From: Thiothrix fructosivorans
GTDB taxonomy: Bacteria > Pseudomonadota > Gammaproteobacteria > Thiotrichales > Thiotrichaceae
NCBI RefSeq assembly: GCF_017349355.1
Contig: NZ_JAFMPM010000006.1
Location: forward strand, 1,798,001-1,862,000
Direction of reading: 5' to 3'
DNA length: 64,000 nt
Part shown: positions 5,723 through 57,800 of the stretch, in pieces
Layout: the number at the start of each line of letters is the position of its first letter
How positions within the stretch are numbered: the first letter of the stretch is position 1
The notes under the pieces: model-generated
What the model was told of the DNA's origin: nothing
Databases searched by the model: none
Seen by the model: the letters and a program-made list of their open reading frames with translations, nothing else
Translations under genes and position numbers: made by a program

Positions 5723-5782
5723 AACAAGGTGTTTCATACTGAATGACCATCGAACTGAAAGGTAACAAACCCGGAGTAAACG

Positions 5783-10293: not shown

Positions 10294-11805
10294 ATGAGCG
10301 AACACGAAACCCATCACGACCATCACGATGAAAACAAACTGATCACGCAACGCCGCGACAAGCTGGCAAAGCTGCGTGCACAGGGTAATGCTTTCCCCAA
10401 TGACGTGGTGCGTGAACACAAAGCCGCTGATTTGCACAAAGAATACGGCGAACATGACAAGGAATGGTTTGAAGAACACGCCATCCCCGTGACCGTGGCG
10501 GGGCGCATGATGCTCCAGCGCGTCATGGGCAAGGCGAGTTTTGCGACGATTTCTGACGTGTCAGGGCGTATTCAGTTGTATACCCAGAAGAACGTGCTGG
10601 GTGATGAGATTTTCGACGATTATTGTCACTGGGATTTGGGCGACATTATCTGGGCATCTGGCATGTTGTTCAAAACCAAAACCGGCGAATTGTCGGTGAA
10701 GGTGCATGAAATTCGTTTGCTGACCAAATCGTTGCGCCCGTTGCCAGAAAAATTTCACGGCTTGACCGACCACGAACAGCGTTACCGCCAGCGTTACATC
10801 GACCTGATCATGAACCACGAGTCGCGGGAATCGTTCATGATGCGCTCCAAAATTGTCGGTTATATCCGCAATTTCTTCCTCCAGCGCGATTATCTGGAAG
10901 TGGAAACGCCGATGCTGCAAATCATCCCCGGTGGGGCAACCGCCCGTCCGTTTATCACGCACCACAACGCGCTGGATTTGCCGATGTATTTGCGGATTGC
11001 GCCAGAATTGTTTCTGAAGCGTTTGGTGGTGGGCGGTTTTGAACGTGTGTTTGAAATCAACCGCAATTTCCGCAACGAAGGGCTTTCCACGCGGCATAAC
11101 CCTGAATTCACCATGATCGAATTCTATCAGGCGTATGCGACTTACCACGATTTGATGGATTTGACCGAAAGCCTGATGCGTGGCATTGCCAACGATGTCG
11201 TCGGTAGCAACGAAATTACCTACCAAGGTGAAGCCTTCGATTTCGACAAGCCATTTGCGCGGATGAGTGTGCGTAGCTCAATTTTGCACTTCAACCCCGA
11301 ACTCTCAGCGGAACAGATTGATACGCTGGAAGGTGCGCGGGAAGTGGCGCGGAAACTGGGTATATTGCTCAAAGATGGCTACGGTTTAGGCAAGGTGCAG
11401 ATCGAGATTTTCGAGAAAACTGTGGAACACCGTTTGATGCAACCGACCTTTATCACCGAATATCCGGCAGAAGTGTCGCCGTTGGCGCGTCGTAATGACA
11501 ACAATCCGTTTATTACCGACCGTTTCGAGTTCTTCATTGGCGGACGTGAAATCGGTAATGGCTTCTCCGAGTTGAATGACGCGGAAGATCAGGCGGAACG
11601 TTTCATGCAGCAGGTGGCAGATAAAGATGCAGGCGATGATGAAGCCATGCACTTTGATGCCGATTACATCCGTGCGCTGGAATACGGAATGCCGCCGACA
11701 GCGGGTGAAGGGATTGGCATTGACCGCTTAGTGATGCTGTTTACGGATGCGCCTTCGATTCGTGACGTTATTTTGTTCCCGCATATGCGCCCGGAGTACG
11801 CTTGA
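10294..11805 (+). CDS. lysS: Lysyl-tRNA synthetase, class II
   Basis: Charges tRNA-Lys with lysine. The 503-residue product has the N-terminal OB-fold anticodon-binding domain ([19 protein letters not shown]), class II motif 2 ([20 protein letters not shown]) and motif 3 ([14 protein letters not shown]). Length is normal. An additional histidine-rich start ([12 protein letters not shown]) precedes the conserved region. It is in an operon with prfB and its stop overlaps the next ATG (TGATG). Confidence 0.97.
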
Positions 11806-12869
11806 TGACTACCTTATTCGACAGCGCCCAATTGGGCGATCTCACCTTACGTAACCGCATTATTATGGCACCGCTCACCCGTTGCCGTGCGAGCGCGGGG
11901 CGTGTCCCGAATGCTTTAATGGCGCAGTATTACCAGCAACGTGCCAGCGCGGGTTTGATCTTGACCGAAGCCACGTCCGTCACGCCAATGGGGGTTGGCT
12001 ACCCTGACACACCGGGGATTTGGTCGACGGAACAAGTCGAAGGCTGGAAATTGACCACGGATGCCGTACATCAAGCGGGCGGTTTGATCTTTTTGCAACT
12101 GTGGCACGTTGGGCGTATTTCCGATTCCAGCTATTTGAATGGCGAATTGCCGGTTGCACCGAGTGCGATGGCGGCGGAAGGGCACGTTAGTTTGGTGCGC
12201 CCGGAGAAAAATTACGAAGTGCCGCGTGCGCTGGCAACCGCCGAGATGGCGGGCATTGTCGCGGCGTACCGTTTGGGTGCTGAGAATGCCAAATTAGCAG
12301 GCTTCGATGGCGTGGAAGTTCACGGCGCGAACGGCTATTTACTCGACCAATTCCTGCAAGACAGCACTAATCAACGTACCGATGCTTATGGCGGTTCGCT
12401 GGAAAATCGGGCGCGTTTAATGCTCGAAGTGACCGATGCGGTGATTGACGTGTGGGGCGCAGGGCGTGTAGGAATGCACCTTGCGCCGCGTTGTGATTCG
12501 CACACCATGGGCGATTCCAACCCACTGGCGACGTTTGGCTATGTGGCGGAAGAGCTAGGTAAGCGCAAAATTGCCTTCATCTTCACCCGCGAAGCGCTGC
12601 AAGCAGACAGCATTAGCCCCGCGATGAAACAGCGTTTTGGGGGGTTCTTTATCGCTAACGAAGGTTTTGATGCCGACAGTGCGCAAACCGTGTTGGCAAC
12701 CGGTACAGCGGATGCGGTGTCCTTTGGTAAAGCATTCATCACCAACCCCGATTTGCCACGCCGTTTGCAAGCAAATTTGCCACTGAATCCGCCCGATTTC
12801 AGCACGTTTTACGGTGTCGGTTTGGCAGATCCGGCGCAAGGCTATACTGACTATCCGTTTGCAGACTAA
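11805..12869 (+). CDS. nemA: Old Yellow Enzyme-type alkene reductase
   Basis: An FMN-dependent NAD(P)H oxidoreductase of about 354 residues, related to NemA/OYE, which reduces activated alkenes, nitro compounds and similar electrophiles. Visible family motifs are NRIIMAPLTRCRA, LQLWHVGRIS, HGANGYLLDQFLQD and the FMN-phosphate region ADAVSFGKAFITNPDLPRR. The catalytic position normally HxxN or HxxH is present as HGAN. The start is ATG 11805, overlapping the lysS stop codon, so expression is coupled to prfB-lysS. The gene symbol is by family resemblance. Confidence 0.85.
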   Translation: MTTLFDSAQLGDLTLRNRIIMAPLTRCRASAGRVPNALMAQYYQQRASAGLILTEATSVTPMGVGYPDTPGIWSTEQVEGWKLTTDAVHQAGGLIFLQLWHVGRISDSSYLNGELPVAPSAMAAEGHVSLVRPEKNYEVPRALATAEMAGIVAAYRLGAENAKLAGFDGVEVHGANGYLLDQFLQDSTNQRTDAYGGSLENRARLMLEVTDAVIDVWGAGRVGMHLAPRCDSHTMGDSNPLATFGYVAEELGKRKIAFIFTREALQADSISPAMKQRFGGFFIANEGFDADSAQTVLATGTADAVSFGKAFITNPDLPRRLQANLPLNPPDFSTFYGVGLADPAQGYTDYPFAD

Positions 12870-12979
12870 GCGATTGTGCGGAAACTTATTGCAATAAGAG
12901 GGATGCGGGGGCTACCATCGAAGCTGTTTTACACCGCAGTGCGGGATACCAATCGTTAGAGAGAGAAGAGGAAATAATC

Positions 12980-13801
12980 ATGAAATACGCTAAAACAGCC
13001 TGTCTTATCGTAGGGCTTGCCATGTCTAGCTTGGCTTCTGCTGAGTTTACCGATGGCTTCGATAATGGCAGTGGCGCTGGGCAAGGCACGGGTTCTGGTC
13101 AAGCCAACACCAGTGGTTCAGGGCAAGGTTACGGCACAGGCGCAAGCGATGCCTCTGGCTTTGGGCGAGGTAAGGGTGATGCTGGTGGTGATGTTGACTT
13201 CACCATTACCATGAAAGGCAAAGGCAAAACCGATTTGGAAAGCGATGCTGCCGGAAATGGTCGCGGCAACGGTGCGAGCAATATGCAGGGCAACGGTTAT
13301 GGGTATGGCGATGCGTACAACAATATGTACGGCTACAGCAATACCGCCAAAAACGGTTACGGTGGCAACAACGCTAACCCTTGGGGTGGGATGATGCCGA
13401 ACATGATGCAGGCACAGCCGCCGATGCAGCAAGGACAAATGCCACAAATGCAACCGATGCAGCAGCCAATGGCAATGCAAGGTATGCCCCCGCAAATGAT
13501 GATGCCGCCGATGCAACAAGCACCGAGTTTTGAGCAAATTTACCAAAAAATGTTGATGCAACGTGCGCAAGCCGATGCTTTCTTCAAGAAGGTCGATGAA
13601 ATGCGTCAAGCCAGTGCTGCACGTCAAGCAGCTGCACAAGCAAATGCTGCACCGCCTGCACCCGCCGCTCCGGCTGCTGTGCCTACGGATACTGCCGCTG
13701 CTGCTACGCCAGCGAGTGCACCGTCCGCACCTGCCGTTGATATGCCACCCTCGCCGCCAGGTCCCGCAGCACCCATCGAGGCTGCACCCGCCGCTAAATA
13801 A
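12980..13801 (+). CDS. Secreted Gly/Asn/Met-rich protein, sulfur-globule-protein-like
   Basis: A Sec signal peptide (KTACLIVGLAMSSLASA) precedes a Gly/Ser-rich segment with repeated GxGxG units, then a Tyr/Asn/Gly segment (GNGYGYGDAYNNMYGYS), a Met/Gln/Pro-rich middle (QPMQQPMAMQGMPPQMMM) and an Ala/Pro-rich tail. Regular Gly/Asn/Tyr sequences behind a signal peptide are typical of the structural proteins that coat periplasmic sulfur globules in sulfur oxidisers, and this is my best guess. A different extracytoplasmic structural protein is possible. It stands alone with its own terminator; a GAGGA ribosome-binding site precedes ATG 12980. Confidence 0.5.
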   Translation: MKYAKTACLIVGLAMSSLASAEFTDGFDNGSGAGQGTGSGQANTSGSGQGYGTGASDASGFGRGKGDAGGDVDFTITMKGKGKTDLESDAAGNGRGNGASNMQGNGYGYGDAYNNMYGYSNTAKNGYGGNNANPWGGMMPNMMQAQPPMQQGQMPQMQPMQQPMAMQGMPPQMMMPPMQQAPSFEQIYQKMLMQRAQADAFFKKVDEMRQASAARQAAAQANAAPPAPAAPAAVPTDTAAAATPASAPSAPAVDMPPSPPGPAAPIEAAPAAK

Positions 13802-28046: not shown

Positions 28047-28411
28047 GGGGGCGACTTGGCTTCGACGTGGATTACAAAGTCTGGGGAGCATGTAGTGGAT
28101 GTGGTGACCACTTAAACACTAGTCACAAACAATAGTCGCAAACGACGACTCTTACGCTCTCGCCGCTTAATAACCGGTAGATAGCTGTCTGATCGCTACT
28201 GTGCTTATGCAGTACGAATATTCAGGCATCATCCAATCATAAGATCGTGCGGGAGGCTCGCCCAAGGCCAAACCACTAAACAGTATTGGGACAGCCTGTG
28301 AGCAGCCTGTCAGTTGGCGGCAATCGGGTTAAACAAATGACTGACTAAACATGTAGTAGCCTTCAGATGGAGGATTTGCGGACGCGGGTTCAATTCCCGC
28401 CGCCTCCACCA
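28047..28411 (+). ncRNA. ssrA: Transfer-messenger RNA
   Basis: The 365-base RNA rescues stalled ribosomes by trans-translation. The 5' end GGGGGCGACTTGGCTTCGAC pairs with the 3' end CGCCTCC before an encoded CCA, giving a 7-bp acceptor stem with one G-U. The T-arm GCGGGTTCAATTCCCGC is intact. The tag frame starts at GCA 28138 and encodes ANDDSYALAA followed by TAATAA (28168). The integrative element begins immediately after the CCA, so the mature RNA is unchanged by the insertion. Confidence 0.97.
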
Positions 28412-28413
28412 AA
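28398..28413 (+). repeat. attL: left 16-bp direct repeat in the tmRNA 3' end
   Basis: CGCCGCCTCCACCAAA forms the 3' acceptor strand and CCA of ssrA and recurs exactly at 42008-42023. Identity ends on both sides, as expected for an integrase core site. Confidence 0.9.
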
Positions 28414-28481: not shown

Positions 28482-28523
28482 GTTGCATGGTGTATCAATG
28501 GGTGTCATGACATCTTACGAATT

Positions 28524-28545
28524 TGTGGGTATTGTTGCGGGTATA
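28524..28545 (+). repeat. Probable integrase arm-type site, left
   Basis: A 22-base segment built of two GGGTAT half-units (TGTGGGTAT and TTGCGGGTATA). It matches 20 of 22 bases with 41924-41945 at the other end of the element. A further inverted copy (ATACCCAC) lies at 28564-28571, at the integrase start. Such repeated short sites flanking both att cores are typical arm-binding sites. Confidence 0.6.
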
Positions 28546-28573
28546 CCCGACTTTCAGAAAATGGATACCCACA

Positions 28574-29794
28574 ATGAAGCGCAAACTTACCGACACAGCC
28601 GCAAAGAATGCCAAACCAACGCCAGACGGCAAGCCGAAGAAATACAGCGACGGGGGCGGGCTGTTACTGTTGGTAAATCCCAACGGTTTGAAGTACTGGC
28701 GATATGTCTACAGGATGGATGGCAAAGAAAAAACGCTATCCATTGGCAGTTATCCAGAAATCAGCCTGAAGGATGCACGGTTACTGCACGAAGAGGCACG
28801 CGCCTTGCTTGCCCGTGGTGTTGACCCATCGCAGCACAAGCAAGCCACCAAGGGCGCTAGGGTGGCAGAATCGGCTAACACCTTTCAAGCCGTGGCTACT
28901 GAATGGCTTGTGAAGTTCACAGCAGACCAAGTGCCAGAACACACCGACCGGCAGAAACGGCGGCTAGAACGTCACGTTTTCCCGTGGATAGGCGGGCGCA
29001 TCATTGGGGAAATTGAGCCACCGGATATTTTAGCCGTGCTGCGACGTATCGAAGCGGCTGGAACGCTGGAAACCGCACACAGGGTTAAAACTATCATAGG
29101 GCAGGTGTTCCGCTATGCCGTGGCGACAGGTCGGGCGGTACGTGACCAAACCGCAGACCTGAAAGGCGCACTGCCACCCGCAAAAGGCAACCACTTTGCA
29201 GCGATCACAGACCCGAAGGAAATAGGGGAACTATTGCGGGCTATGGCTGGCTACCGTGGGGCTATTGAAACCTGCATAGCTTTGCAGTTGTCGGCTTACC
29301 TGTTCACCCGACCGGGCGAACTCAGACAAATGGAATGGGCAGAGATAGAAGGTGATGTGTGGACAATCCCAGCGGAAAAGATGAAGGCAGGGCGTGTGCA
29401 TGTAGTGCCATTGTGCAAACAGGCATTAGCTTTGCTGGGAGAAATGCGACCGCTAACAGGTAAACGGCGCTATGTGTTCCCGTCCCGCACGGATACCAGC
29501 AAGCCAATGAGCGCTAATACAGTGAGGTCGGCACTGGTACGGCTAGGCTATGAAAGCGACACGATGACCGCACACGGATTTAGAGCGCTTGCTAGTACCC
29601 GACTGTATGAGATGGGCTTTCATTCCGACCTGATAGAAAAGCAACTAGCCCACAGTATTGGTTCTGAGGTTCGCAGGGCTTACGACCGCTCACAGCACCT
29701 AGACCAACGTACAGCCATGATGCAGCAATGGGCGGATTATCTGGACAGTTTGCGGGATGGTGCGCAGGTCATACCGATACGGCGGGCAAGTTAG
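28574..29794 (+). CDS. int: P4-type tyrosine integrase
   Basis: From ATG 28574 the protein has about 406 residues. The N-terminal DUF4102 arm-binding domain reads DGGGLLLLVNPNGLKYWRYVY and YPEISLKDARLLHEEARALL. The catalytic domain has the arginine in LFTRPGELRQMEW, HGFRALAST (HxxR) and the C-terminal VRRAYDRSQHLDQR with the likely nucleophilic tyrosine. The family inserts elements into tRNA and tmRNA 3' ends, as found here. The start codon lies inside the left arm-site cluster, which suggests that integrase may autoregulate. Confidence 0.96.
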   Translation: MKRKLTDTAAKNAKPTPDGKPKKYSDGGGLLLLVNPNGLKYWRYVYRMDGKEKTLSIGSYPEISLKDARLLHEEARALLARGVDPSQHKQATKGARVAESANTFQAVATEWLVKFTADQVPEHTDRQKRRLERHVFPWIGGRIIGEIEPPDILAVLRRIEAAGTLETAHRVKTIIGQVFRYAVATGRAVRDQTADLKGALPPAKGNHFAAITDPKEIGELLRAMAGYRGAIETCIALQLSAYLFTRPGELRQMEWAEIEGDVWTIPAEKMKAGRVHVVPLCKQALALLGEMRPLTGKRRYVFPSRTDTSKPMSANTVRSALVRLGYESDTMTAHGFRALASTRLYEMGFHSDLIEKQLAHSIGSEVRRAYDRSQHLDQRTAMMQQWADYLDSLRDGAQVIPIRRAS

Positions 29795-29924: not shown

Positions 29925-30060
29925 GGGGTAACAGGGGTAACAGTAAGAAAAAGAGAGTTTGTATACATTCTTTTTCTTTTATATTCAGTGGTTTATCTTG
30001 TTACCCCTCTGTTACCCCGAAACGAAAAAAAGGGGTAACAGAGGGGTAACAGGGGTAACA
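29925..30060. repeat. Left iteron block: seven GGGGTAACA copies
   Basis: GGGGTAACA occurs at 29925, 29934, 30032, 30043 and 30052 on the plus strand, and inverted (TGTTACCCC) at 29999 and 30010. The inverted pair and the following two direct copies form a perfect 20-bp inverted repeat (29999-30018 and 30032-30051) around a 13-base A-rich loop. It resembles an iteron-type replication origin or a partition/transfer site. The whole interval 29795-30207 has no gene. Confidence 0.85.
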
Positions 30061-30207
30061 GGCAAAGCAGCACACCAGCATGGCTAATCCTGAAAAGCAG
30101 GCATTCAACACCCAACGGCGAACCCTTCACAGTCAAAACCCATCTATTAATGTTTTGCATGGCGGAAATGCCGATTATGGCGCATCTCGTTTTTTAAGGA
30201 TTCGCAC

Positions 30208-30399
30208 ATGCTGCCAATTAAGAAAGTTTCGGAAATGACCACCCTAGCGCCTGCATCAATCCGCAGGAAATACCGGGCTGGCACATTCCCTGCACCATTG
30301 AAACTGTCAGAACGGCGCTATGGATGGCGTGAAAGCGACGTACAAGGATGGCTCGACAAGTTGGAGGCTGTGACCAATGGCAACGAAATCCAGCCGTAA
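30208..30399 (+). CDS. AlpA-family regulator / excisionase-like
   Basis: A 63-residue MerR-like winged-helix protein: LPIKKVSEMTTLAPASIRRK, then FPAPLKLSERRYGWRESDVQGWL, the pattern of AlpA/Xis-type proteins. These activate integrase or act as excision factors in P4-like elements. It follows the iteron block and overlaps the next gene by 23 bases. Confidence 0.8.
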   Translation: MLPIKKVSEMTTLAPASIRRKYRAGTFPAPLKLSERRYGWRESDVQGWLDKLEAVTNGNEIQP

Positions 30400-32711: not shown

Positions 32712-33149
32712 ATGTTAAATACTACCTCAAAACCGCCCAAAATGGGCAATATTCCACTTGCAGCAGTTCAGCAATGGATTGAAGCCGACGCGGAAAACAC
32801 CCCTGAGTCATGGGGCTATGTTTCCGGCTTGTTAAGCGGCATTCTGATTTTCCGCCCTGACATCAGCGAAGAACTGATGTTTTTGCATCAAATCGCCACA
32901 CAGCGCGGATTGATGGCAAGTCAGGCAACCGGCGGCAAATACTCGCTTCTCACCCCGAAAGAACGCATCGACGCTCTTTCTGACACCCTGAGCCGCATGA
33001 AGGCGCATTCGGTCATCTTGTCGCAATTCTTCACCCGACCGGCAACGAAACAAGCCGCGATTTCTGGCATGAATGCCGAAGTTGAAAACATGCTGGTTCT
33101 TTGGGAAAAGATCAAAGCAGACGTTGAAGAAATGGAGGTGCAGCAATGA
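32712..33149 (+). CDS. Hypothetical helical protein of the element operon
   Basis: A 145-residue soluble, helical, acidic protein (WIEADAENTPESWGYVSGLLSG, RIDALSDTLSRMKAHSVILSQ, VENMLVLWEKIKADVEEMEVQQ). No recognised motif. Its last codons overlap the start of the next gene (ATGA), so it is the first gene of a coupled series running to 35141. Confidence 0.6.
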   Translation: MLNTTSKPPKMGNIPLAAVQQWIEADAENTPESWGYVSGLLSGILIFRPDISEELMFLHQIATQRGLMASQATGGKYSLLTPKERIDALSDTLSRMKAHSVILSQFFTRPATKQAAISGMNAEVENMLVLWEKIKADVEEMEVQQ

Positions 33150-34078
33150 GCAAATACGCACCTCTCACCCTACGCGCCATTGCAGCAATCACGTCTGCAA
33201 CTTCGGCAGCAGCAGCATACCCAGCAGCGTCTAATCTGTTCGGCATGTTGCCCGGTGGCGTTATGGTCGCATCAAGCGCGGCGGTAATTTTTGGAGGCTG
33301 GCACATCGTCGCCACCTCAGGGGATACCGATCACCGCATTGTGTCCGGTGTTACAGCGGCGCTATTCGCTGGCGTGATGACCGTGGGCATTCATAGCAGT
33401 GGTCAACTGAAAACCGCAACACAAGCCACCAGCACGGCGGAACAAGCCGACACGCTATACATGAATCAGGAATCAACCCGCATGGCAACGCTGGCAACCG
33501 TGGCGGCTGAATTGCGGGCGACGCAGAAAAGCAAATACCCGGCGGAATATGCCGCGTTACAAGCGCAAGTCGACAAGCTTTCAACCCCAGCGGTTCGCAC
33601 TCCTACCGCAAGCCAAGAGGCAACCGCAACAACTGGCAGCATTCAGCAATGGATTGCAGCGAGTGTGTTTGAAATCGTCACACCTGCATTGCTGCTATTG
33701 GCTGGCATGTTTTCGCACCGTAAACAGCGTGACAACACCGCGTTAACACCTGTTAACAGTGCGTTAACACAAGAAAAACAAGAGGTTGTAATTTCAGCGT
33801 TAACAGACCCGTTAACAGCGTTAACAGACGATAACACCGCGTTAACAGCCGCCGACAACGAGTTAACAGACCCGTTAACAGCGTTAACACGTCGCTCTAT
33901 TGAGCCAACATCTGAGGGTTTCATCACCGCAAAACAGGTTATCAGTGCGACAAATTGCACCGATAGACAGGCGCGTGACGCAATCAAGCAAGCAACTGAT
34001 GACGGCATTTTAGAGAGTATCGGTTCTGGCAACGCTACCCGCTACCGCTACAGCAACAAACTGAGGATTGTAAAATGA
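33146..34078 (+). CDS. Membrane protein with C-terminal winged helix and ALT repeats
   Basis: The 310-residue product has two or three membrane segments in the first 75 residues (YPAASNLFGMLPGGVMVASS, IVSGVTAALFAGVMTVGI) and another near residue 185 (FEIVTPALLLLAGMF). A repetitive segment follows (TALTPVNSALT ... LTDPLTALTDD ... LTDPLTALTRR), then a winged-helix-like domain (ITAKQVISATNCTDRQARDA, IKQATDDGILESIG). A membrane-tethered DNA-binding protein is the simplest reading. The repeats correspond to ten GTTAAC palindromes in the DNA. ATGA overlaps link it to both neighbours. Confidence 0.65.
   Translation: MSKYAPLTLRAIAAITSATSAAAAYPAASNLFGMLPGGVMVASSAAVIFGGWHIVATSGDTDHRIVSGVTAALFAGVMTVGIHSSGQLKTATQATSTAEQADTLYMNQESTRMATLATVAAELRATQKSKYPAEYAALQAQVDKLSTPAVRTPTASQEATATTGSIQQWIAASVFEIVTPALLLLAGMFSHRKQRDNTALTPVNSALTQEKQEVVISALTDPLTALTDDNTALTAADNELTDPLTALTRRSIEPTSEGFITAKQVISATNCTDRQARDAIKQATDDGILESIGSGNATRYRYSNKLRIVK
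33742..33888. repeat. Ten GTTAAC palindromes inside the 33146-34078 gene
   Basis: GTTAAC starts at 33742, 33752, 33763, 33799, 33811, 33820, 33841, 33862, 33874 and 33883, always followed by A. Nine copies read xxG TTA ACA (Leu-Thr); the second is in another frame (GTT AAC, Val-Asn) yet keeps the same bases. This suggests the DNA sequence itself matters. Confidence 0.85.
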
Positions 34079-34584
34079 GCTTAATCCGCGCAACTAATAG
34101 CAGTATGCCCAACCTTGTGGGGCTTGGTTTATTGATCGGGGGCGGTGCATCTGCCCTATCTGTAATGGTGGGCGGCAATCCGATTTTGAACTTTCCCGGT
34201 AGAGAAGTCGCTGATTTTGCATTCGGTGCAGCAACAGCCGTTACAGGCTTTTTTGTACTGAAAGAAGGTTCAGCGGTAGCGGCATGGTTAGCCGGTGCTT
34301 TGGTCGCTGGCGCAATGGTTTACGCGGGTTTGAGCGTGGACACCGACCAAGCGGGGCGAATGCTCACAGCAACAATGAGTGCAGCGAAATCAGGCGCAGC
34401 CAGTGCAGCGGATAGCGTAGCGAATGGCACTAGCAGCACAAGCCAATACCGCGCAATTCGCCAACTGACAGCCGCAGAATCCGCAGAATGTGACGCTAAC
34501 CTAAAGTGGACTCGCACCGATCAAGGGCGACTCAATTGCTCAATTGCCAGTGACGGCAAGCGTTATGTGTGGAGCGCGAACTAA
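34075..34584 (+). CDS. Small membrane protein of the element
   Basis: A 169-residue protein with three likely membrane helices (residues 15-35, 45-62 and 66-85, rich in Gly/Ala), then an Ala/Ser-rich linker and a C-terminal soluble part (AAESAECDANLKWTRTDQGRLNCSIASDGKRYVW) with two cysteines that could form a disulfide. Unknown function. Overlaps its neighbours by ATGA and TAATG junctions, so it is made together with the M23 peptidase. Confidence 0.6.
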   Translation: MSLIRATNSSMPNLVGLGLLIGGGASALSVMVGGNPILNFPGREVADFAFGAATAVTGFFVLKEGSAVAAWLAGALVAGAMVYAGLSVDTDQAGRMLTATMSAAKSGAASAADSVANGTSSTSQYRAIRQLTAAESAECDANLKWTRTDQGRLNCSIASDGKRYVWSAN

Positions 34585-35141
34585 TGAGCCTAGCCACCTA
34601 TTTTAGCCCTGTTGCTACATGGTCGATTTCCATTGCCTTGGGCGTGGCAATCATCCCGCCAATGTATCAGGGCTTTGTGTTTGGTGGCGGTGAAAACTTT
34701 CTGGAACAAGCGCGTCAAGAGGTCGCTTACCTGTTTTCGTGGGCATCACCTAGCGCAATCCGCAAGCCATTAGAGGGTGATGCGGTCATCACATCACCTT
34801 ACGGAATGCGTAAACACCCAGTAACAGGACTGCAAGCCATGCATAACGGCAAGGATTACCGTTGCAACGTTGGGAAACCCGTGGGCGCTATTGCCGATGG
34901 CGTTATCAATTTTGCAGGCATGGCGGGGCATTCCGGCTTGCTGGTAGCAGTCGACCATGCTGATGGTATGCAGTCGCTCTATGCACATCTAAACGCCACA
35001 GATATGCAAGCGGGCAAGCAAGTCAGAGCGGGCGATGTTATCGGCGCGTGTGGCAATACCGGGCGTTCTACAGCACCACACCTGCATTTAGGCATAAAAC
35101 AACACGGGCAATTCATCGACCCGACCACTAAAGGACTCTAA
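34584..35141 (+). CDS. M23-family peptidase (LytM-like)
   Basis: From ATG 34584 (MSLATYFSPVATWS), which overlaps the preceding stop codon, the protein has about 185 residues. An N-terminal hydrophobic segment is followed by the M23 zinc-peptidase domain: SPYGMRKHPVTG, HNGKDYRCNVGKPVGAIADG (the H...D ligands), AHLNATDMQAGKQVRAGDVIG and PHLHLGIK (the HxH motif). All zinc ligands are visible. It should cut peptidoglycan cross-bridges. In this operon it probably opens the cell wall locally for DNA or particle passage. Confidence 0.88.
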   Translation: MSLATYFSPVATWSISIALGVAIIPPMYQGFVFGGGENFLEQARQEVAYLFSWASPSAIRKPLEGDAVITSPYGMRKHPVTGLQAMHNGKDYRCNVGKPVGAIADGVINFAGMAGHSGLLVAVDHADGMQSLYAHLNATDMQAGKQVRAGDVIGACGNTGRSTAPHLHLGIKQHGQFIDPTTKGL

Positions 35142-35144
35142 GCA

Positions 35145-36026
35145 ATGGAAAATGAAGCCATTTTCAACAGAATTGATGCACGTCTTGACCGTATCGAAAA
35201 GCTCACCCGCAAAACCTACCGCCAAACAATGCCGGAAATGCCGTGGTTATTCGCGGCAATCGCAGGCGTGGCAGTGGTTAGCCTTGGCTATGTGCTCTAT
35301 CCGCAACTGCCCACAGAGATTAAAGACGTAATCGAACCACGGGTAGACGTGGCACAAAACAAGTTTTACAGCATCGGGCAATGGTTTGCTGATTACAGCG
35401 GCAATGTTGACCGTTCATACACGCTACCCAGTGGCACGTTAACGATTATTAGCCTAACGCCTTTGCAGTCATGCCGGTGGCGTTCTGCATTGCTGGCGCG
35501 GGAATCCAGCGGCAACTATCAGCACACAGGCAACCAGTTTGGCTATTTTGCAGGTTATGCAATGGGGGCTGAATCACTGGCAATCGTCGGACTGGTGAAG
35601 CAATCCGCTTTTGATGATGCACCCCGCCATGTTCGCAACGGTACAGATCAAACCGCATGGCTCAATAACCCGCAAAACTGGCAATTGCGCGGCGGCAAAC
35701 AAGCGTTTCTGCATGACAACCTCTTGCAAGACCGTGCCGTAACCGTGCTGGCTAATACCAACATTGCCGACGGATTCAAGAGCCGCGTCCTTCTCGAATC
35801 CCAACAAGAGAAAATCGCAGGGTTCGCAGCGGCGGCGCATTTGAAAGGGCTGACAGCGGCAATTTCTTGGTACGCAAGAGGGAAGGACTCCCACGACGCG
35901 AACGGTACAAACACCAGCGACTATGCCGCGATGGGTGAAGCATCCATTAACAAACGCTCGAATTTATGCGCGGAAAATACCAGACAAGTACCTTCATGGC
36001 TGAAGTGGCTGGAAGTGAAGAATTGA
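35145..36026 (+). CDS. Membrane-anchored lysozyme-like protein
   Basis: A 293-residue protein with an N-terminal coiled coil (IDARLDRIEKLTRKTY), one membrane helix (residues 33-52, LFAAIAGVAVVSLGYVLY) and an outer domain with LLARESSGNYQHTGNQFGYF, then AGYAMGAESLAIVGL. The Glu followed by Ser-Gly-x-Tyr and a Gly-Tyr-Phe-x-x-Tyr-x-Met-Gly segment is like transglycosylase or phage lysozyme catalytic regions; Glu near residue 120 would be the acid. Together with the M23 peptidase it would attack both glycan and peptide bonds. Assignment by motif only. Confidence 0.65.
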   Translation: MENEAIFNRIDARLDRIEKLTRKTYRQTMPEMPWLFAAIAGVAVVSLGYVLYPQLPTEIKDVIEPRVDVAQNKFYSIGQWFADYSGNVDRSYTLPSGTLTIISLTPLQSCRWRSALLARESSGNYQHTGNQFGYFAGYAMGAESLAIVGLVKQSAFDDAPRHVRNGTDQTAWLNNPQNWQLRGGKQAFLHDNLLQDRAVTVLANTNIADGFKSRVLLESQQEKIAGFAAAAHLKGLTAAISWYARGKDSHDANGTNTSDYAAMGEASINKRSNLCAENTRQVPSWLKWLEVKN

Positions 36027-36121: not shown

Positions 36122-36913
36122 ATGACAACAGACATTAATAAACCAGACGATACAGAGCTACTACTGCAAAACATGCAGAGAAAATTAACTGAATCATCCT
36201 ATCGTGACAATAAAGGGCGGGCAGCAATAGCCAAACTGCTGACCTCTGACAACGCTATCAGATTGATCGAATCCACAGCCGACAAACTGGGCATTGAGCC
36301 TATCACCGTGGGGCGTGGCTTAGCCTTGGCTATGTGCCAGTACCGCACCGGCTCACAGATCAACGTGACCGACCTAGGCAACGCAATCAACCCGGATGGC
36401 GTAGGTGTGCGTTTTGGCAGAGAAACCATTATCCCGCTTGCCATTGAACTGGGCTTTATCGTCAAGACCGGCGAACGCTCTACCGCGTGGGCGGCATACG
36501 ACAAGATCGGACACAAGCCCGGTTTGCTGGATGGCATCAAGTCAGCATTTACAGCAACACCCGAAAAGCTGGCAGCAAAAGCGGAATCAGAACGCGCCTA
36601 CGCTGAAAAGTGCAAGCTCGACACAGCACGGAAGGCTGAAGCATTCGCCCAACGTCGCAAGGAGGCGTTAATGCGTACCGTAAACGCTGCACAAGAGGCT
36701 GAAAAGCTGGCAACAAGCCTACCGGGGCAACCTGAAACCATTGGCGACAAGATCAAAGCAAACCCAGCGGCGGCGGTACTAATCGGCTTTCTTGCCGTTG
36801 GCATTGGTGCAGCGGTGATGACCTCAGAACCACAGCAACAAGCCTTAGCCCCATTGATTGCCAATGTAAACGGCTCACCCACACTCGACCCGCGTATTCT
36901 GGAAGGAGAATAA
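36122..36913 (+). CDS. Tail-anchored helical protein upstream of the FtsK-like gene
   Basis: A 263-residue protein. The first 140 residues (AAIAKLLTSDNAIRLIESTADKLGI, GLALAMCQYRTGSQ, FIVKTGERSTAWAAYDKIG) look globular. A charged coiled coil follows (AAKAESERAYAEKCKLDTARKAEAFAQRRKEAL), then a membrane helix near residue 220 (AAAVLIGFLAVGIGAAVM) and a short tail. Unknown family. It ends 3 bases before the FtsK-like gene, so the two products probably work together at the membrane. Confidence 0.6.
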   Translation: MTTDINKPDDTELLLQNMQRKLTESSYRDNKGRAAIAKLLTSDNAIRLIESTADKLGIEPITVGRGLALAMCQYRTGSQINVTDLGNAINPDGVGVRFGRETIIPLAIELGFIVKTGERSTAWAAYDKIGHKPGLLDGIKSAFTATPEKLAAKAESERAYAEKCKLDTARKAEAFAQRRKEALMRTVNAAQEAEKLATSLPGQPETIGDKIKANPAAAVLIGFLAVGIGAAVMTSEPQQQALAPLIANVNGSPTLDPRILEGE

Positions 36914-36916
36914 ACC

Positions 36917-38158
36917 ATGAGAATCGGAACGTTTGACTTAGATCAATTTTACCCTGAAACCCATTTGCAGACAGTGACAGCCGCAACCCTATTGACCGTG
37001 CCAGCATTGGCTACAGGTAGCTTTGTGGCTGGCGTTAGCGCGTTAGGGCTGGCATGGGTAGCGCGGCAATCCATAACCGCGTGGAAGCGTGACAATTGCT
37101 TATTAGGTAGTGACCTTGATGCAGAGGATACCCGCGAACATGCAGCAGTCAACACCAATAACGACGTTACCGCACGGCTACGCAAAGCAACTGGCAACCA
37201 AGACTTAACCGCTATCGAAAGCCGTTCTGCACAATATCGCCTACTCAGTGTTGCCAATGATGACCCCGCACAAATTGCCAAGGTATTACCGCGTATTGCC
37301 AGCGTGTTAGGTGTTGCCCCTGATGCACTGGGCTGGATACCCACAGCAGGGCGTGACCTGTCTATCATCCTTGCCCCATTGGAGCGGGCAGAGTGGCTAC
37401 CCGTGCCGTTTAATGAATCCGCACTGACACAGGGTAAGTTGATCGGATACGTTGGGCGCGATGTGTTGGGAAATCACGTCACTTACAGCCGCCAAGATGC
37501 ACCACACATGCTGATTAGTGGCACAACCCGCAGCGGCAAAACTGAGGCAATCCGCGCTGATCTTCAATCCATGCGCTTATCTGGCTTGCGTCCTGAGATT
37601 CACATTATTGACGCGAAAGGCACACTATGCCGTGAACAATGCGCAACATTCACCACGGATATGGGCGAAGGACTGGCAACCCTGCAAGCCATTGTTGAGC
37701 GGGCGCGTGAACGTATCCGGGAAATCGTGGCGACTGGTTGCGATAACTGGTTTCAGTACCGTGCAAAATGCCCTGATGTTTGTCCCGCTCCCATCATGGT
37801 GTACGTGGATGAATACCCACAGTTACGCAAGCAAGACAAAGAGGCGGTGGAAACCGTAGTGGGTGAATTAACCCGTGTTCATGCCGCGTCTGGCGTGTTT
37901 GTCACGCTTGGCATTCAAAAGCCCAAAGCCGACACCTTGCCGACTGAAATCCGCGATATGTTTGATATTCGCCTAGCGATGCGCGTACCCGATAGCAAAG
38001 CGTCAATGGTGGCAATTGATGAACCCGGCGCGGAAGGCTTACCCGGTGCTGGCGCGTTTATGTTTCGCAACGGTGGGGATTCTGTTGTACGTGGGCGTGG
38101 TGCATTGATCGAAGGGGCTGATAAAGCTTCTGGTGCAGAACCAGCGTCAACCGCGTGA
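36917..38158 (+). CDS. FtsK/HerA-type DNA-translocating ATPase
   Basis: A 413-residue protein. Residues about 18-55 form one or two membrane helices. The motor domain has Walker A SGTTRSGKTEAIRADL (near residue 203) and Walker B PIMVYVDEYPQL (near residue 293), and later VHAASGVFVTLGIQKPKADTLPTEIR, which matches the FtsK/SpoIIIE '[13 protein letters not shown]' motif. It is shorter than chromosomal FtsK and lacks the gamma domain. Such proteins pump double-stranded DNA through a membrane, as in TraB/TraSA of Streptomyces elements, or serve as packaging ATPases in membrane-containing phages. Confidence 0.85.
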   Translation: MRIGTFDLDQFYPETHLQTVTAATLLTVPALATGSFVAGVSALGLAWVARQSITAWKRDNCLLGSDLDAEDTREHAAVNTNNDVTARLRKATGNQDLTAIESRSAQYRLLSVANDDPAQIAKVLPRIASVLGVAPDALGWIPTAGRDLSIILAPLERAEWLPVPFNESALTQGKLIGYVGRDVLGNHVTYSRQDAPHMLISGTTRSGKTEAIRADLQSMRLSGLRPEIHIIDAKGTLCREQCATFTTDMGEGLATLQAIVERARERIREIVATGCDNWFQYRAKCPDVCPAPIMVYVDEYPQLRKQDKEAVETVVGELTRVHAASGVFVTLGIQKPKADTLPTEIRDMFDIRLAMRVPDSKASMVAIDEPGAEGLPGAGAFMFRNGGDSVVRGRGALIEGADKASGAEPASTA

Positions 38159-38489: not shown

Positions 38490-38542
38490 ACAGAAATGCC
38501 CGATAGGTGAATCAGACCGTACCGGGCAGAAAGGATTTAAAA

Positions 38543-39589
38543 ATGAAGCTTGATTATACCATATTCGATAGCCTGCATAACCCGCAAGGCGCAAAAAATA
38601 CCGCATCATGGGCGGATGTATGCCGGATGCTGCAAGACGTGCCAGCCTACGCAAGCAAGGCAGAACAGCCACTTATCAAGATGGGCGTTTTTGAAGGAGA
38701 TTCACGCGGGGCAGGGCATGGCTTGACCAATATTAGCGGAATTGAAATTGATTATGACGCGGGCAAAGTGACCCCACACAGCGCGGCTAAGTTATTGCGT
38801 CAAGCCGGTATTGAATGCGTGGTATGTAGCACGTTCACCAGCTCACCCGATTGCCCAAAATGGCGCGTATTCGCCCCCACAAGCCGCGAATTACCCGCAG
38901 AATTACGCGCCTACCTTGTTGCTGCACTGGATAGCGTTCTGTTAGGGATTGCAGCGCGTGAGAGCTACACCGCAAAGCAAACATTTTTCTTTGGGCGCAA
39001 CCCTGAAAGCAATTACGTGTTCATGCACTTGCGGGGTGAGTTTGTTGACGTGGCATTAAAGACCATAGCAAACGCGGCGTATACAAAGGACAAGCGCGAA
39101 AAGGCAGAGCGGGAACAGTTAGCCGCTACTACTTGCCTCCGTGCCGAAACCCAACGAAACCGCAAAGCAGCGGGGCGACTCACTGAGGGGCAAATATCCC
39201 CGATTACAGCCTTTAGTGATGCGCATGACGTGCGGTCTATCCTCAAAGCGCACGGATACCGGGAATCAGGAAAGAAGTTTGTATCTTCGGCATCATCCAG
39301 CGGCATGGCTGGCGTGGTGATCCTGCAAGGTGATGATGGGCGGGAACGGGCATTCTCACACCACAGCAATGACCCCATAGCAGACGGGCTTGCACATGAT
39401 GCGTTTGACCTGTTTTGCATTCTCGACCACGGCGGCGACGAATGGGCGGCGATACAAGCAGCGGCTAAGTTACTCATCACCGCCAACGGCGAAAGCCTGC
39501 ACTCACACAATCGCAACGCTTACCGCCAAGCGCAACAAGCCGCAAAAGCACAAGCAGCACTCGACAAACTTAAAGGGGTGGCAGTATGA
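38543..39589 (+). CDS. AEP-type primase / prim-pol-like protein
   Basis: About 348 residues from ATG 38543 (MKLDYTIFDSL). The N-terminal half has the archaeo-eukaryotic primase pattern of phage and plasmid replication proteins: SGIEIDYDAGKVTPHSA (the DxD metal site), CSTFTSSPDCPKWRVFAPTS, and SYTAKQTFFFGRNPESN. The C-terminal part (FVSSASSSGMAGVVILQGDDGRERAFSHHSNDPIAD) matches the small domain that follows it in such proteins. It should make primers for element replication. Its end overlaps the DUF927 gene by 4 bases (ATGA). Confidence 0.75.
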   Translation: MKLDYTIFDSLHNPQGAKNTASWADVCRMLQDVPAYASKAEQPLIKMGVFEGDSRGAGHGLTNISGIEIDYDAGKVTPHSAAKLLRQAGIECVVCSTFTSSPDCPKWRVFAPTSRELPAELRAYLVAALDSVLLGIAARESYTAKQTFFFGRNPESNYVFMHLRGEFVDVALKTIANAAYTKDKREKAEREQLAATTCLRAETQRNRKAAGRLTEGQISPITAFSDAHDVRSILKAHGYRESGKKFVSSASSSGMAGVVILQGDDGRERAFSHHSNDPIADGLAHDAFDLFCILDHGGDEWAAIQAAAKLLITANGESLHSHNRNAYRQAQQAAKAQAALDKLKGVAV

Positions 39590-41523
39590 CCGCTACAGCA
39601 CAAACAAACCCGGTGAATGAGCTACTGGCAGAACTCACCACACAAGCGCAAGGCGTAACGCTGGCAACCTATCAGGATTTTCTGCACACAGTCGCCTTGT
39701 TGGTAGTCGATGGCACAATTGACCCCATTCAGCGGGAATCTGTCATTAAAGCACTGACGGGCAACGGTCACGAACTTGGGGGTAAACGTTTAATCACCAA
39801 TGCTTTGACGGCAGCGGAAAAGCAGATTAAGCGCGATATGGAAACCCCACAGGGCGGTATTAAAGGCGGGCGGGGTTTGTACTCACTGAGAGATAACGGC
39901 GTGTGGTACAGCAAACCGACGAAAGACGGCTATTCAGAACCCGTGTTTATTTCACCTCACCTGAAGGTTATTGCTGAAACTTACGATACAGCAGACGGCA
40001 ATAATGGGCGCTTCATTGAATTCAAAGATACGCGGGGCAGGCTCAAAACGTGGGCAATGCCTGCCATATTCGCGGCTGGCGACGGTACAGAGATTGCTAA
40101 ATACTTGCGTAACGCTGGCTTGAACTATGTTTATGGATTCGACAAAGAGGTTATTGACTACCTGCTATCCTCAGAGGTCACAGACTTGATGACATGCAGC
40201 GACCGCACCGGATGGGTGAATGATGTGTTTGTCACACCGAAGATAACCTACGGCGAAAATGCAGAGAGCTACACCTACCAGCCAACTAGCGCGATTGATA
40301 ACAAGATCGGGCAAGCGGGAAAACTGGCAGACTGGCAAGCCAATGTTGCACGGTATGCGCAAGGCAACCCGTTGATGATGGTAAACACATCTCAGGCTTT
40401 TGCGGGTACGTTGCTCAAAAAGGCGGGAATGATGGGTTTCGGTTTGCATGATTGGAGTAGTTCCACAGATGGCAAGTCAACCACCCTGAAAATTGCTTGC
40501 AGCGTATGGGGTAGCGAATTCTGGCAACAGTGGCTATCTACCTCAGTCGGGATTGAGGGCAGCGCATACGCCCACAATGATTTGTTTCTGGCGCTTGATG
40601 AAATCGGCGAAGCTACCGCGCAAACGGTTAGCGCCACAGCCTACGCACTGGCAAACGGCGAAGGTAAGCGACGGGGCGGGCGTGACGGTAACGCCAAAAT
40701 AACGAAGAAATGGCGCGTGGTGTTTTTGTCTACTGGTGAAAAGTCGCTAGATACACTGATGAAGGAAGCGGGCATGGTTACAAGGGCAGGGCAAGAGGTG
40801 CGCATGATTAACGTGCGTAGCGATGCATGGAAGCATGGCGCGTTTAATGATTTGCACGGTATGGAAAACGGTTCTGTTTTCGCTGAAATGCTGGAAGCCA
40901 ACACTAAGCGGTATTACGGCACGGCGGGCGATGCGTGGCTTTATGCGATCACGCAACCGGGCGGGATACCTGATGACATTAGCCAATCTGTTGACGCAAT
41001 CCGGGAGACAATGCTACCCGAAGGCGCAAGCGGGCAAGTACGGCGTGTGGCTCGACAATTCGCCCTAATTGCTTACGCTGGCGAACTGGCAACAAAGCAC
41101 GGTATTACCGGATGGAAAGAGGGAGATGCAACAGCAGCGGCTAAAGAGTGCTTTGACTTGTGGGTAGATGACTTCGGCGGCGCAGATGGCAAGCGCGAAC
41201 ACCGCCAAGTGCTAGAAGCCGTTGAATCATTCCTGTTTGCCAGCATTTCACGGTTTCATGATTTGCGGGTTTCTGACAATTCGATTTATGCCGTTAAAGA
41301 TCGTGTCGGGTTCGTGCGTAGCGGCGTGGATGGCGGGCATGAATACCTTGTGCCAGCAACAGAGTTAACAAAGCTTGCAGAGGGGTACAGTAGAGAGCAA
41401 ATCATTACCGCGCTACGCATGGCAGGAATGCTTAACGAACCCGGCAAGGATGGCAAAAGCGCGATAGTGTTACCCCGTGCAGTCGGTAAACAGATGAAGG
41501 GCTTTATCATCACCCCAAAATAA
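39586..41523 (+). CDS. DUF927-family helicase-like ATPase
   Basis: A 645-residue protein of the DUF927 family found with phage and plasmid primases. The core includes GLYSLRDNGVWYSKP, TAWAMPA-like (KTWAMPAIFAAGDGTEI), TCSDRTGWVNDVFVTP, a P-loop in SSSTDGKSTTLKIA (about residue 295) and Walker B NDLFLALDEIGEA. Further GGRDGNAKITKKWRVVFLSTGEKSL is typical. It is probably the replicative helicase working with the primase encoded just upstream. A terminator and the right iteron block follow. Confidence 0.85.
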   Translation: MTATAQTNPVNELLAELTTQAQGVTLATYQDFLHTVALLVVDGTIDPIQRESVIKALTGNGHELGGKRLITNALTAAEKQIKRDMETPQGGIKGGRGLYSLRDNGVWYSKPTKDGYSEPVFISPHLKVIAETYDTADGNNGRFIEFKDTRGRLKTWAMPAIFAAGDGTEIAKYLRNAGLNYVYGFDKEVIDYLLSSEVTDLMTCSDRTGWVNDVFVTPKITYGENAESYTYQPTSAIDNKIGQAGKLADWQANVARYAQGNPLMMVNTSQAFAGTLLKKAGMMGFGLHDWSSSTDGKSTTLKIACSVWGSEFWQQWLSTSVGIEGSAYAHNDLFLALDEIGEATAQTVSATAYALANGEGKRRGGRDGNAKITKKWRVVFLSTGEKSLDTLMKEAGMVTRAGQEVRMINVRSDAWKHGAFNDLHGMENGSVFAEMLEANTKRYYGTAGDAWLYAITQPGGIPDDISQSVDAIRETMLPEGASGQVRRVARQFALIAYAGELATKHGITGWKEGDATAAAKECFDLWVDDFGGADGKREHRQVLEAVESFLFASISRFHDLRVSDNSIYAVKDRVGFVRSGVDGGHEYLVPATELTKLAEGYSREQIITALRMAGMLNEPGKDGKSAIVLPRAVGKQMKGFIITPK

Positions 41524-41573: not shown

Positions 41574-41578
41574 GTGCC

Positions 41579-41690
41579 TGTTACCCCTGTTACCCCGAAA
41601 ACACCCCAAGGGGTAACAGGGGGTAACAGCTTAAGCTATTGATAAATAACAGATAAAAAAGCCTGTTACCCCTGTTACCCCTGTTACCCC
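41579..41690. repeat. Right iteron block: seven GGGGTAACA copies
   Basis: TGTTACCCC at 41579, 41588, 41664, 41673 and 41682; GGGGTAACA at 41610 and 41620. The order is two reverse, two forward, three reverse, the exact complement of the left block (two forward, two reverse, three forward). The remaining interval to attR (41691-42007) has no gene but holds further GGGTA-type arm sites. Confidence 0.85.
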
Positions 41691-42007: not shown

Positions 42008-42023
42008 CGCCGCCTCCACCAAA
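42008..42023 (+). repeat. attR: right 16-bp direct repeat
   Basis: Exact copy of the tmRNA 3' end (CGCCGCCTCCACCAAA). It is followed within 5 bases by the native ssrA terminator, so this is the chromosomal side of the insertion. Confidence 0.9.
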
Positions 42024-54872: not shown

Positions 54873-57800
54873 ATGAAACGTTTGTTTGGTCGCTTATTAC
54901 CTGCCATCCCGCTGCTATTTTCCGCTGTACTCATGGCGGATGATGCGGAAATCTACTACTCGCAAGGCGTGAGTGTGAACCCCAACATTTTATTTGTGTT
55001 GGATACCTCACTGAGCATGGAATGCAAAGCCGATAGTAACGGGCTATACGATAAGCCGGACACAACGTGCGTTAATAAAAATACCGTCCCCGATAGTGGC
55101 GGCAAAACACGGATGCAGGTGATGCAGGAGGCGGTCAGCGCAGTATTAACCTCTGCCCCTAGCAACCTGAATATCGGGTTGATGCGCTACGGCGGACACG
55201 GCGAAAATCAAGCTAACGGGGTGAGCTTTCCCGTTAAACCCATTGATTTAGATAAGGATGGTAACGGCAGTGTTAAAGCCATCATCGAAGCCAGTATCCC
55301 AATGGGGCAAGACAATTTACCCAATCCTACGGGTGCTACCCAGCCAGTACGGGCATTCTTACAAGACGTTGCCAATAGTTGGAGTGCGGGCGGAAATACG
55401 CCTATCGTGGATGCCTTATACGAGGCTAGTCGTTACTACCGTGGCGAATCGGTGGATTTTGGGAATTTAGCGCCGGATCAAGTACGCGCAGCGCATCCTT
55501 CGACTTATGTTAACGATACGACCTTAAATTGCCAGACTAACCAGTGGTCGTGTAATAACACCGCCAAGGAATGCAATACTGCTTTGCCTACCACCGATTG
55601 CAAGTCCCAAACGCACACGGTCTGTAAAACATACAAAACTGAGACATTGACGACTTCCGTGGCGAATCAATGTTGTGGTTGGGAAACCGTGCAGGAGGCG
55701 AGTACCTGTCAGGATTGCAAAACCATCAAAGAACCCGGCATGTGCCAAGACTGTAAAACAGTTAAACAACCCGGTATGTGCCAGACCTGTACCATCAGTG
55801 GTTACGATGAATCCGGTCAGCCGATTAATAGTTGCACGGAAACCGCTTGCATGAAGGATGTGCAACAATGCACCGAGGTTGCTTGCATGAAAGATGTGCA
55901 GCAATGCACGAATGTCGCCTGTACTAAGGATGTGCAGCAATGCACGGGTGGGTTCACTTGTTCCACTCCGACCACCACTACCCAAAACGTTTGCGTAGAA
56001 GAAGAGGTGATTGAGGAGGAAATCTGTCAGCAGCAGCAAACCGTGTGTGGCGGTGAAAAGCGTTATATTTCACCAATTGAACACGAATGCCAAGCCAACT
56101 ACGTGGTGCTCATGTCGGATGGTCGCCCCGAATACGCAGGCAGTGCCAGCAGTGGCGGCAGTATTAACCAATACCCGTTACGCAAAAATGAAGTGCAAAC
56201 CCTGACCGGTAAGGACACGAATTGTGACAACGATGCGCCGAATGGCTATAAAAGCGGAACGTGCGGCGCTGAATTAACCCACTTTCAGGCGAATAGCGAT
56301 CAAGCAACCAGTATTGATGGCAAACAGTCGATTGGGACGTTCACCGTAGCGTTTGGGGTGGAAGATACGGCGGGTACGGAATACCTTGCCAGCCTTGCCA
56401 ATATGACGGGCGGGGCACTGGCAGCAAACGATACTGATAGCCTGAAGCTGGCGTTTGATCAAGTGATTCGCAAGGTAAGCAAAATCAAGGGCGAACCTGT
56501 TGCCTCGGCAAATGTGGCTTACCAAGCGCAAGATTATACCGTTGCCAAACCCGTGGCGCTGGCACAGCAACCGAACCTGCATGAACGTCTATTCGGCGTG
56601 CTGGGGGCGGGGATTGAAATGGCTGAGGTGCGGGCGGATGTGTGGGAAGTGCTGAATCCAGTGTCCTATTTACGCAATTTGGCGGCAGTGAACAGTGGTG
56701 CATTCACGGCGAGTAACTTGGAGGACTTGACCAAGAGCTTTAATAGCATTTTGGATAAAATTGATGCGGTGTCGTCATCGTTCAGTTCTCCGGCGTACAG
56801 CGTGGATAAAGACAGCATGTTAGCGCACGGTGACAATGTATACATTCCGGTGTTTGAGCGCAGCATGTTGCCGCTGTGGTCGGGTAATCTGAAAAAATTC
56901 AAAGTGGCTAAAACGCCGCTTGATGCCGATAGCGATGGTGTGGTGGATATTAAAAAAGGACAAATCTACAGCACGAAAAACAATAAACCTGCCGTGGATG
57001 AGAAGGGGCAATTCACCGATGCAACATGGGATGAATGGTCAACGTCTGCTACTGCTGATGGTAAAACCGTGCAAGCAGGCGGTGCGGCGGCGTTATTGAA
57101 TCCTGCCAGTCGTCAGTTGTATACCGATGCGGGTGGGGTGTTGGGGGATCTTGATATTGCCAATACCGCGATTACCAAAACAGTGCTGGGTGATGCGGGG
57201 ATGGACGATGCTTTGCCCGCCAGCCTATTGGCGTTTGCACGCGGCTATGACAAGGATGGCACGACCGTGCGCCACCATATCGGCGATATTATGAACAGCA
57301 AGCCGGTGGTGCTGGATTACATTGACGGTAAAAGTTACGTGATGGTGGGCAGCAATGAGGGTTTCCTGCACGTCTTTGATACCGCCGACGGTGCGGAAAA
57401 ATGGGCATTCATGCCGCAAACCTTACTGAAAAATATCCGGCATTTCTACGACAACAACCAAGAGAAAACCCATTTCTACGGCGTGGATGGCGCGTTAGTG
57501 CCGTGGACGTTGGATAAAAACGGTGATGGCAAAATTGATGCGAGCAACGGTGACAAAGCCTATTTGTTCTTTGGGCTGCGGCGCGGTGGCAATGCTTATT
57601 ACGCCTTGGATATTACGGATGTGGCTGTACCGAAACTGGCGTGGACGGTGACAAATACCACTACGGGTTTTGCTGAATTGGGTGAAAGCTGGTCAAAACC
57701 GGCATTGGCTAAAATGCGTACCCAAGCCAGTGCAATTGATCCGGTGGTATTGCGCGATGTACTGGTATTCGGGGCAGGCTTTGATGTGGCACTGGAAGAA

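Follow-up and report, generated by a model that had tools for sequence, protein, structure and literature searches.

The window, by which we mean the whole 64-kb stretch of DNA analysed here, contains a gene in which copies of the heptamer GTTAACA are crowded into the coding sequence ahead of a winged-helix domain, and comparison with related genes suggests that this winged helix probably reads the array. We propose that the winged helix of the protein binds this array within its own gene, that site and reader form a self-coded cassette, and that the cassette is the recognition locus of an FtsK-type DNA-transfer module. In our judgement this reading, taken as a whole, stands at about even chances.

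The array gene of the window (hereafter W) contains ten GTTAACA at 33742..33889 on the + strand. The copies start at 33742, 33752, 33763, 33799, 33811, 33820, 33841, 33862, 33874, and 33883, with successive spacings of 10, 11, 36, 12, 9, 21, 21, 12, and 9 bp. Recomputing the starts and counts confirmed the sequence-only reading, which had reported ten copies in about 147 bp of coding DNA, whereas base composition predicts 0.017 copies in 147 bp on both strands. Two copies with one mismatch lengthen the array, GTAAACA at 33720 and GATAACA at 33830..33836 (+), and the latter divides one 21-bp gap into 10 + 11 bp. Ten of the 25 GTTAAC copies in the 64-kb window fall inside the array stretch. A scan of the 4.36-Mb genome found no second cluster of three GTTAACA; all 6 pattern matches fell in the W array, and the reversed pattern, used as a control, gave 0 matches. 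Repeats of other kinds occur elsewhere in the window, namely a perfect 9-bp tandem repeat (CCAAACCAA x8; 3407-3478) and 36-bp repeats (55719-55945).

The array is selected as DNA and not as peptide. Nine of the copies in W read as GCG/CCG/GAG-TTA-ACA, while the copy at 33752 lies in another reading frame (GTT-AAC-AGT) and keeps the same bases, as had been noted from the start. The Leu codon is TTA in 9/9 cases inside the array but in 2/17 in the remainder of W, and in 40 of the 252 Leu codons of nine element ORFs. In a synonymous null, the peptide was held fixed, codons were resampled from the same gene, and the count of the top linker 7-mer was compared. The observed count (k=7) was reached in 0/2000 draws each for W and for its relatives L002, L003, L004, and L005, and likewise in 0/2000 for L043. 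As a control, 349 ORFs of at least 120 aa were taken from the window and 28 loci, which contain the relatives themselves, and 12 of the 349 reached 0/300. Seven of these 12 are of the array-gene type (window, L007, L008, L009, L042, L043, L081), two encode SLFN_AlbA_2 proteins that have a winged helix at the C terminus (L084, L086), two are opposite-strand ORFs over or beside arrays in L081 and L083, and one is a replication-like ORF in L011. This last ORF (12754-13752) has AGCGCAC five times within about 110 bp, spread over two frames (0/300), and the cluster is possibly an intragenic origin. The peptide-fixed result for W, together with the frame independence of the relatives' arrays, bears out the earlier suggestion that selection acts on the DNA.

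The W protein has 310 aa (33146..34078, +), as defined by its ORF, an AlphaFold2 model, and alignment. N-terminal membrane helices and a coiled region are followed by a third hydrophobic segment, a linker, and a C-terminal winged helix. The AlphaFold2 model (5 sequences; mean pLDDT 61) predicts long N-terminal helices, disorder with pLDDT below 50 in the linker (residues 186-239; 33701..33862, +), and a confident winged helix (about residues 243-302; 33872..34051, +) with pLDDT blocks of about 87-92. The C-terminal winged helix behind membrane helices was thus already recognised correctly from the letters, and the model adds the disordered linker between them. In the fold comparison, the best VIA-align Z was 7.4, and the matches were so many and general that no family can be named from them. 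TraB, FtsK-gamma, and TcpK chains were absent among the structure matches listed, an absence that excludes none of them. Family searches matched W to no replication initiator family, and the winged-helix fold alone does not exclude an initiator.

The array protein was present in 5 of the 57 genomes searched, including W's own, at 6 places. Its profile matched in 10/63 family genomes, in some only to the winged-helix stretch of other proteins, and the more distant L044, used as a query, matched in 4/63 genomes, partly through the winged-helix stretch alone. Additional members were located beside related motors. The class-wide search with L044 as a query gave no match, and one additional class-wide match to alignment A1 was judged to be unrelated; in the class-wide search with the motor profile, host FtsK crowded out everything else. 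Viral contigs, searched with the array protein, its alignment, the motor, and two distant members, gave no relative, and the plasmid collection gave none for the array protein. Motor matches in the plasmid and phage collections reached identities only up to about 33%, the module was not recognised among the neighbours of the two plasmid motor matches inspected, and a Moraxella plasmid match was dropped as a candidate for the same module on the basis of its neighbouring genes.

The relatives share the layout of membrane region, disordered linker, and C-terminal winged helix, and in most of them this linker contains a short repeat of another sequence, in many cases occupying two or three frames. 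GTTAAC is absent from the array gene of all five close relatives. The expectation that homologues would conserve the GTTAACA motif therefore failed, and most have an array of their own at that place. The linkers contain GGGCAACC x7 in three frames in L002, GGACACG x8 in three frames in L003, GG[AC]CACG in L004 (11 in the linker and one beyond; top 7-mer CGTGGCC x6), and four forward and three reverse GTTGAC in L005 (top 7-mer GGTTGAC x4). The more distant L043 has CGGGGAAC x6 in three frames, L044 has GGTCAAA x4 (5/2000), L081 has ATTGCAG x7 in three frames (0/300), and L082 has CGTTGCA x5 (1/300); L083 and L076 have four-copy arrays by scan. The L042 gene is split over two frames and was treated, unmended, as two pieces, giving CAATCAA at 1/2000 and ATTCAAT at 50/2000 in the peptide-fixed null. 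In this gene (372-2289), the frame split sits in a long ATTCAATGAATC-type repeat. L038 was marginal (37/2000). No significant array was found in the close relative L006, the winged helix of which is 47% identical to that of W (230/2000, k=7), or by the k-mer test in L036 (1467/2000 at k=7, 247 at k=8), and L075 and L077 have no exact 7-mer array around the linker; by eye, two to three copies of GGGTCA(A/G)A can be seen in L075. The linker peptides of the relatives are 17-36% identical to that of W, and none of the relatives was seen to keep the ALT peptide with different codons, the outcome named beforehand as the one that would speak against a DNA-level motif. Two adjoining membrane winged-helix proteins were also observed on a phage-like contig (L011, 4690-6830, minus strand), with AACAAC-rich DNA upstream of their genes and no motor seen.

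The motif follows the reader. For the Mantel tests, each member was represented by its automatic motif and by at most 52 residues of its winged helix. The Pearson form gave r 0.45 for 16 members (0/20000 permutations) and r 0.51 for the 12 members with clear arrays (7/20000). It was run after the rank form, which was weaker (252/20000 for 18 members, 1182 for 16, and 2238 for the 12 with clear arrays). L083 (a twin) and L085 (broken frame) were excluded, and the twins L086 and L075 were also left out of the 16-member form. Individual members point in the same direction. The N-terminal region of L003 is nearer to W and L002 (82-85%) than to L004 (58%), whereas the winged helices of L003 and L004 are 74% alike and GGACACG is common to both. 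L036, L081, L082, and L083 have a common ATGWGR helix and a common TTGCA core.

DNA comparison of W with L007 delimits an exchanged cassette at 33722..34036 (+), comprising the linker with the array and the winged helix. The identity is 90-93% up to the last membrane segment, and falls to 38% in the linker and 53% in the winged helix; the last 13 codons are fully identical (100%), and the gene that follows is 74-81% identical. A second case is provided by L081 and L082, both copies from the single genome G003. They are 96% identical in the N-terminal part, then 94%, 44% in the array part, and 46% in the winged helix; the intergenic DNA after it is 85% identical, and the gene that follows is 99% identical. 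L083, from another genome, carries the L082 cassette at 98-99%. Judged by these alignments, the array and the winged helix were exchanged together in both cases, and it is the co-inheritance of site and putative reader that the comparisons establish, whatever the role. Joint inheritance alone could produce the correlation between array and reader.

In the five clear close arrays, 27 of the 37 neighbour spacings are 9-12 bp, 5 are 20-22 bp, and none is 13-19 bp; random placement put a mean of 12.9 spacings in 13-19 bp, and 0/20000 placements were as extreme as the observed none. The whole arrays are unphased at 10.5 bp, since 1743/5000 random placements were equally good. Thus, the idea of one- or two-turn spacing stands for the short spacings, which are quantised near one turn, but not for the arrays as wholes. 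A 9-12 bp spacing without a 10.5-bp phase of the whole array suggests readers placed side by side instead of on one rigid face of the DNA. Sites also occur outside the array gene. In L082 and L083, four extra motif sites occupy the non-coding gap that separates the array gene from the following gene of that strand, L081 has two extra sites downstream of the array gene, and in the L010 element eight GTTGAC lie outside it, four in the gene of a small membrane protein and four in that of a second membrane protein. In the stretches examined, only 1 copy lies outside the array gene in the window, and the corresponding counts are 4 for L007, 1 for L008, and 4 for L009.

W belongs to an element of 13.6 kb inserted at ssrA and bounded by two copies of the att core CGCCGCCTCCACCAAA, one at the 3' end of the tmRNA (28398..28413, +) and the other at 42008..42023 (+). 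As in an ICE-like integrative element, an integrase is present, and the att sites form direct repeats at an RNA gene. On the + strand, the element encodes a tyrosine integrase (28523..29794) and an AlpA-like regulator (30208..30399), and a small ORF (32712-33149) lies ahead of the array gene on the same strand. W is early in a same-strand gene run that ends with the motor. It is followed, again on the + strand, by a small membrane protein of the module (34075..34584), an M23 peptidoglycan endopeptidase (34584..35141), a membrane protein with a lysozyme-like domain (35145..36026; phrog_27932, E 3.9e-15), another putative winged-helix protein, in which a membrane segment is C-terminal (36122..36913; assigned by eye, with no family match), and an FtsK/SpoIIIE-type motor of 413 aa (36917..38158; PF01580, E 1.9e-9, above the cutoff). 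Downstream are a replication protein (38507..39589, +; phrog_256) and a DUF927 primase/helicase (39586..41523, +). No gamma, winged-helix, or other DNA-reading domain was detected in the motor, in which the Pfam match covers only 172-369, and the NCBIfam TraB model aligned to it only over 245-420 of 639, far below the cutoff. Among the element ORFs scanned there was no match to relaxase or T4SS families, the sole T4SS-related signal being a weak TrwB_AAD_bind match to the motor below the cutoff, and none to ParA-, ParM-, or TubZ-like NTPases. Separate iterons, with the forms GGGGTAACAG/CTGTTACCCC at both element ends, lie at 29925..30070 (+; GGGGTAACAG, a likely replication origin) and 41577..41690 (+), and are probably the origin of the element. 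The end repeats differ in related elements, being AAGACAA in L037 and L007 and TTACAACA and AGTACAG in L009. In L008, insertion-sequence genes, which we take to be IS66-like, interrupt the lysozyme-like gene (11083-13360), and the motor ORF is short (330 aa).

Similar arrays are present in proteins of a different kind. L084 (4354-5772) and L086 (3057-4439) encode SLFN_AlbA_2 / HATPase_c_4 proteins with a CCGGATAC array at 10-bp pitch in all three frames before the C-terminal winged helix, visible as a tandem 10-bp CCGGATACCG repeat. A protein of this kind in L085 (near 5727-5882, minus strand) has a shorter CCGGATACCG repeat at which the frame breaks, and loss of a repeat unit of this type may switch the gene. 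In a survey of 30 SLFN_AlbA_2 loci plus L084 and L086, the longest ORF was taken from each locus, and for several loci, among them L084 and L086, this was not the intended gene. A regular frame-shifting repeat appeared in L101 alone (GTTCGGA x4 at 11 bp, 13/400), and the repeats of L087 and L116 were 12-bp and in-frame; none of these is counted as evidence. Somewhat short of even confidence, we suggest a general device, a winged helix whose gene carries its own site array in the preceding linker as a swappable cassette and private address, used by unrelated proteins such as the membrane proteins of FtsK modules and the soluble SLFN_AlbA_2 proteins.

In the mechanism that we propose for W, the array would serve as the cognate binding site for the winged helix that this gene encodes immediately after it, and site and reader would be inherited and swapped as one cassette, so that each element would hold its own address plus the protein that reads it. 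The N-terminal half of W would hold the protein in the inner membrane, and the flexible linker would let several winged helices sit side by side on the array at the 9-12 bp pitch. The bound winged helices would tie the excised circular element to the membrane. The FtsK-type motor, in which no reading domain was detected, and the wall-cutting enzymes (M23 and lysozyme-like) could then load on the tethered DNA, and the loaded motor would move it to another cell. The self-binding, membrane-tethered locus imagined from the letters alone fits the comparative data best (Mantel tests, exchanges, extra sites), with binding itself being what we infer from them. A transfer site is favoured because the neighbours of the membrane reader are two wall enzymes and a motor in which no reading domain was detected, and we consider a transfer role of the array evenly balanced.

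Arrays before the winged helices of soluble SLFN_AlbA_2 proteins favour a role untied to transfer, and they make autoregulation the main rival. The protein would bind the array in its own gene, block transcription, and thereby limit itself and the downstream motor operon. The position of the array within an early gene of a same-strand run ending at the motor would suit this, as would the regulator-like character of L084 and L086 and the fact that winged helices, as the fold matches illustrate, are in most cases regulators. However, further clusters of sites are found past the end of the gene or within genes that follow it, promoter-like sequences near the array are not in excess (2 found vs 2.2 expected), and a roadblock needs no membrane anchor; we consider autoregulation unlikely, though a rival to be taken seriously. 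Ranked after it, and also unlikely, is a role in partition or incompatibility, in which the array would be a centromere and the membrane-bound reader would keep or segregate the extrachromosomal form. Two elements with different cassettes in one genome (L081, L082) are expected if like arrays interfere, and the fold matches include winged helices that bind plasmid centromeres, alongside many unrelated ones. Nevertheless, the element ORFs scanned match no ParA-, ParM-, or TubZ-like NTPase, and the neighbours of W are a DNA motor and wall enzymes.

The short repeats, their pitch of about 10 bp, and their intragenic position would also fit replication iterons inside a gene in the manner of lambda O, and the element iteron GGGGTAACAG shares 8/10 bases with GCGTTAACAG by eye. 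This is nonetheless very improbable, because the replication genes have separate iterons on either side, the end iterons of L037 and L009 are unlike the gene array, and W matches no initiator family. Least probable of all, and close to negligible, is selection of the linker peptide or the generation of the repeats by slippage. Nine of the ten copies share one frame, giving xLT, and the linker is low in complexity, but the W count was never reached under the peptide-fixed null, relatives have arrays with other peptides and in several frames, and copies occur in non-coding DNA in L082 and L083.

If the proposed reading is right, the gene spells out in its own text the sites to which its DNA-binding domain binds, so that specificity would be readable from sequence and testable with natural reader-site pairs. 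It would also point to DNA transfer driven by FtsK in Gram-negative bacteria, through a module that keeps motor and site reader apart, and would account for the coexistence of several similar elements in one cell. The differing arrays with matching readers suggest a swappable address system for moving or anchoring element DNA.

In the lambda O gene, the ori iterons, which are the binding sites of the O protein, lie inside the protein's own gene; unlike W, O is a replication initiator and not a membrane protein. For elements of the present kind, the titles and abstract openings covered, which represent the subscription literature thinly, describe no array inside the reader's own gene. The proposed arrangement would be a split version of the Streptomyces TraB/clt system, in which clt/TRS repeats are read by FtsK-like TraB (pSVH1, pJV1, pWTY27); according to the parts of these reports consulted, clt differs between plasmids, and in pWTY27 it overlaps 16 bp of traA (PMC3583192, PMC4170104, PMC3218068). 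Both systems combine an FtsK-type motor on a mobile element with short direct repeats in cis. In TraB, however, the motor reads the repeats through its own C-terminal domain, while here no such domain is detected in the motor, the putative reader is a membrane protein distinct from it, encoded by the gene that contains the entire array, and the host is a gammaproteobacterium. The winged helix of TcpK binds tandem 9-nt repeats (TcpK boxes) at oriT of pCW3, and the sections of that report consulted describe TcpK as small, a dimer in solution, and acting at oriT with the relaxosome and conjugation apparatus (PMC6137059). W resembles TcpK in its winged-helix fold, which is a common fold, whereas the present element has no relaxase match. 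To our knowledge, the TcpK sites do not lie within its own gene. A further counterpart is ICEth1 of Thermus thermophilus, an element of about 14 kb at a tRNA gene, the FtsK/HerA-like pump of which, TdtA, has no DNA-binding domain; the part of the report consulted describes neither a repeat array nor a membrane reader, and the authors expect site recognition to fall to some other protein (PMC5365140). The element described here is of similar size, is likewise inserted at an RNA gene, and has an FtsK-type motor with no reading domain detected. By analogy, the present membrane reader could be the counterpart of the protein that they expect.
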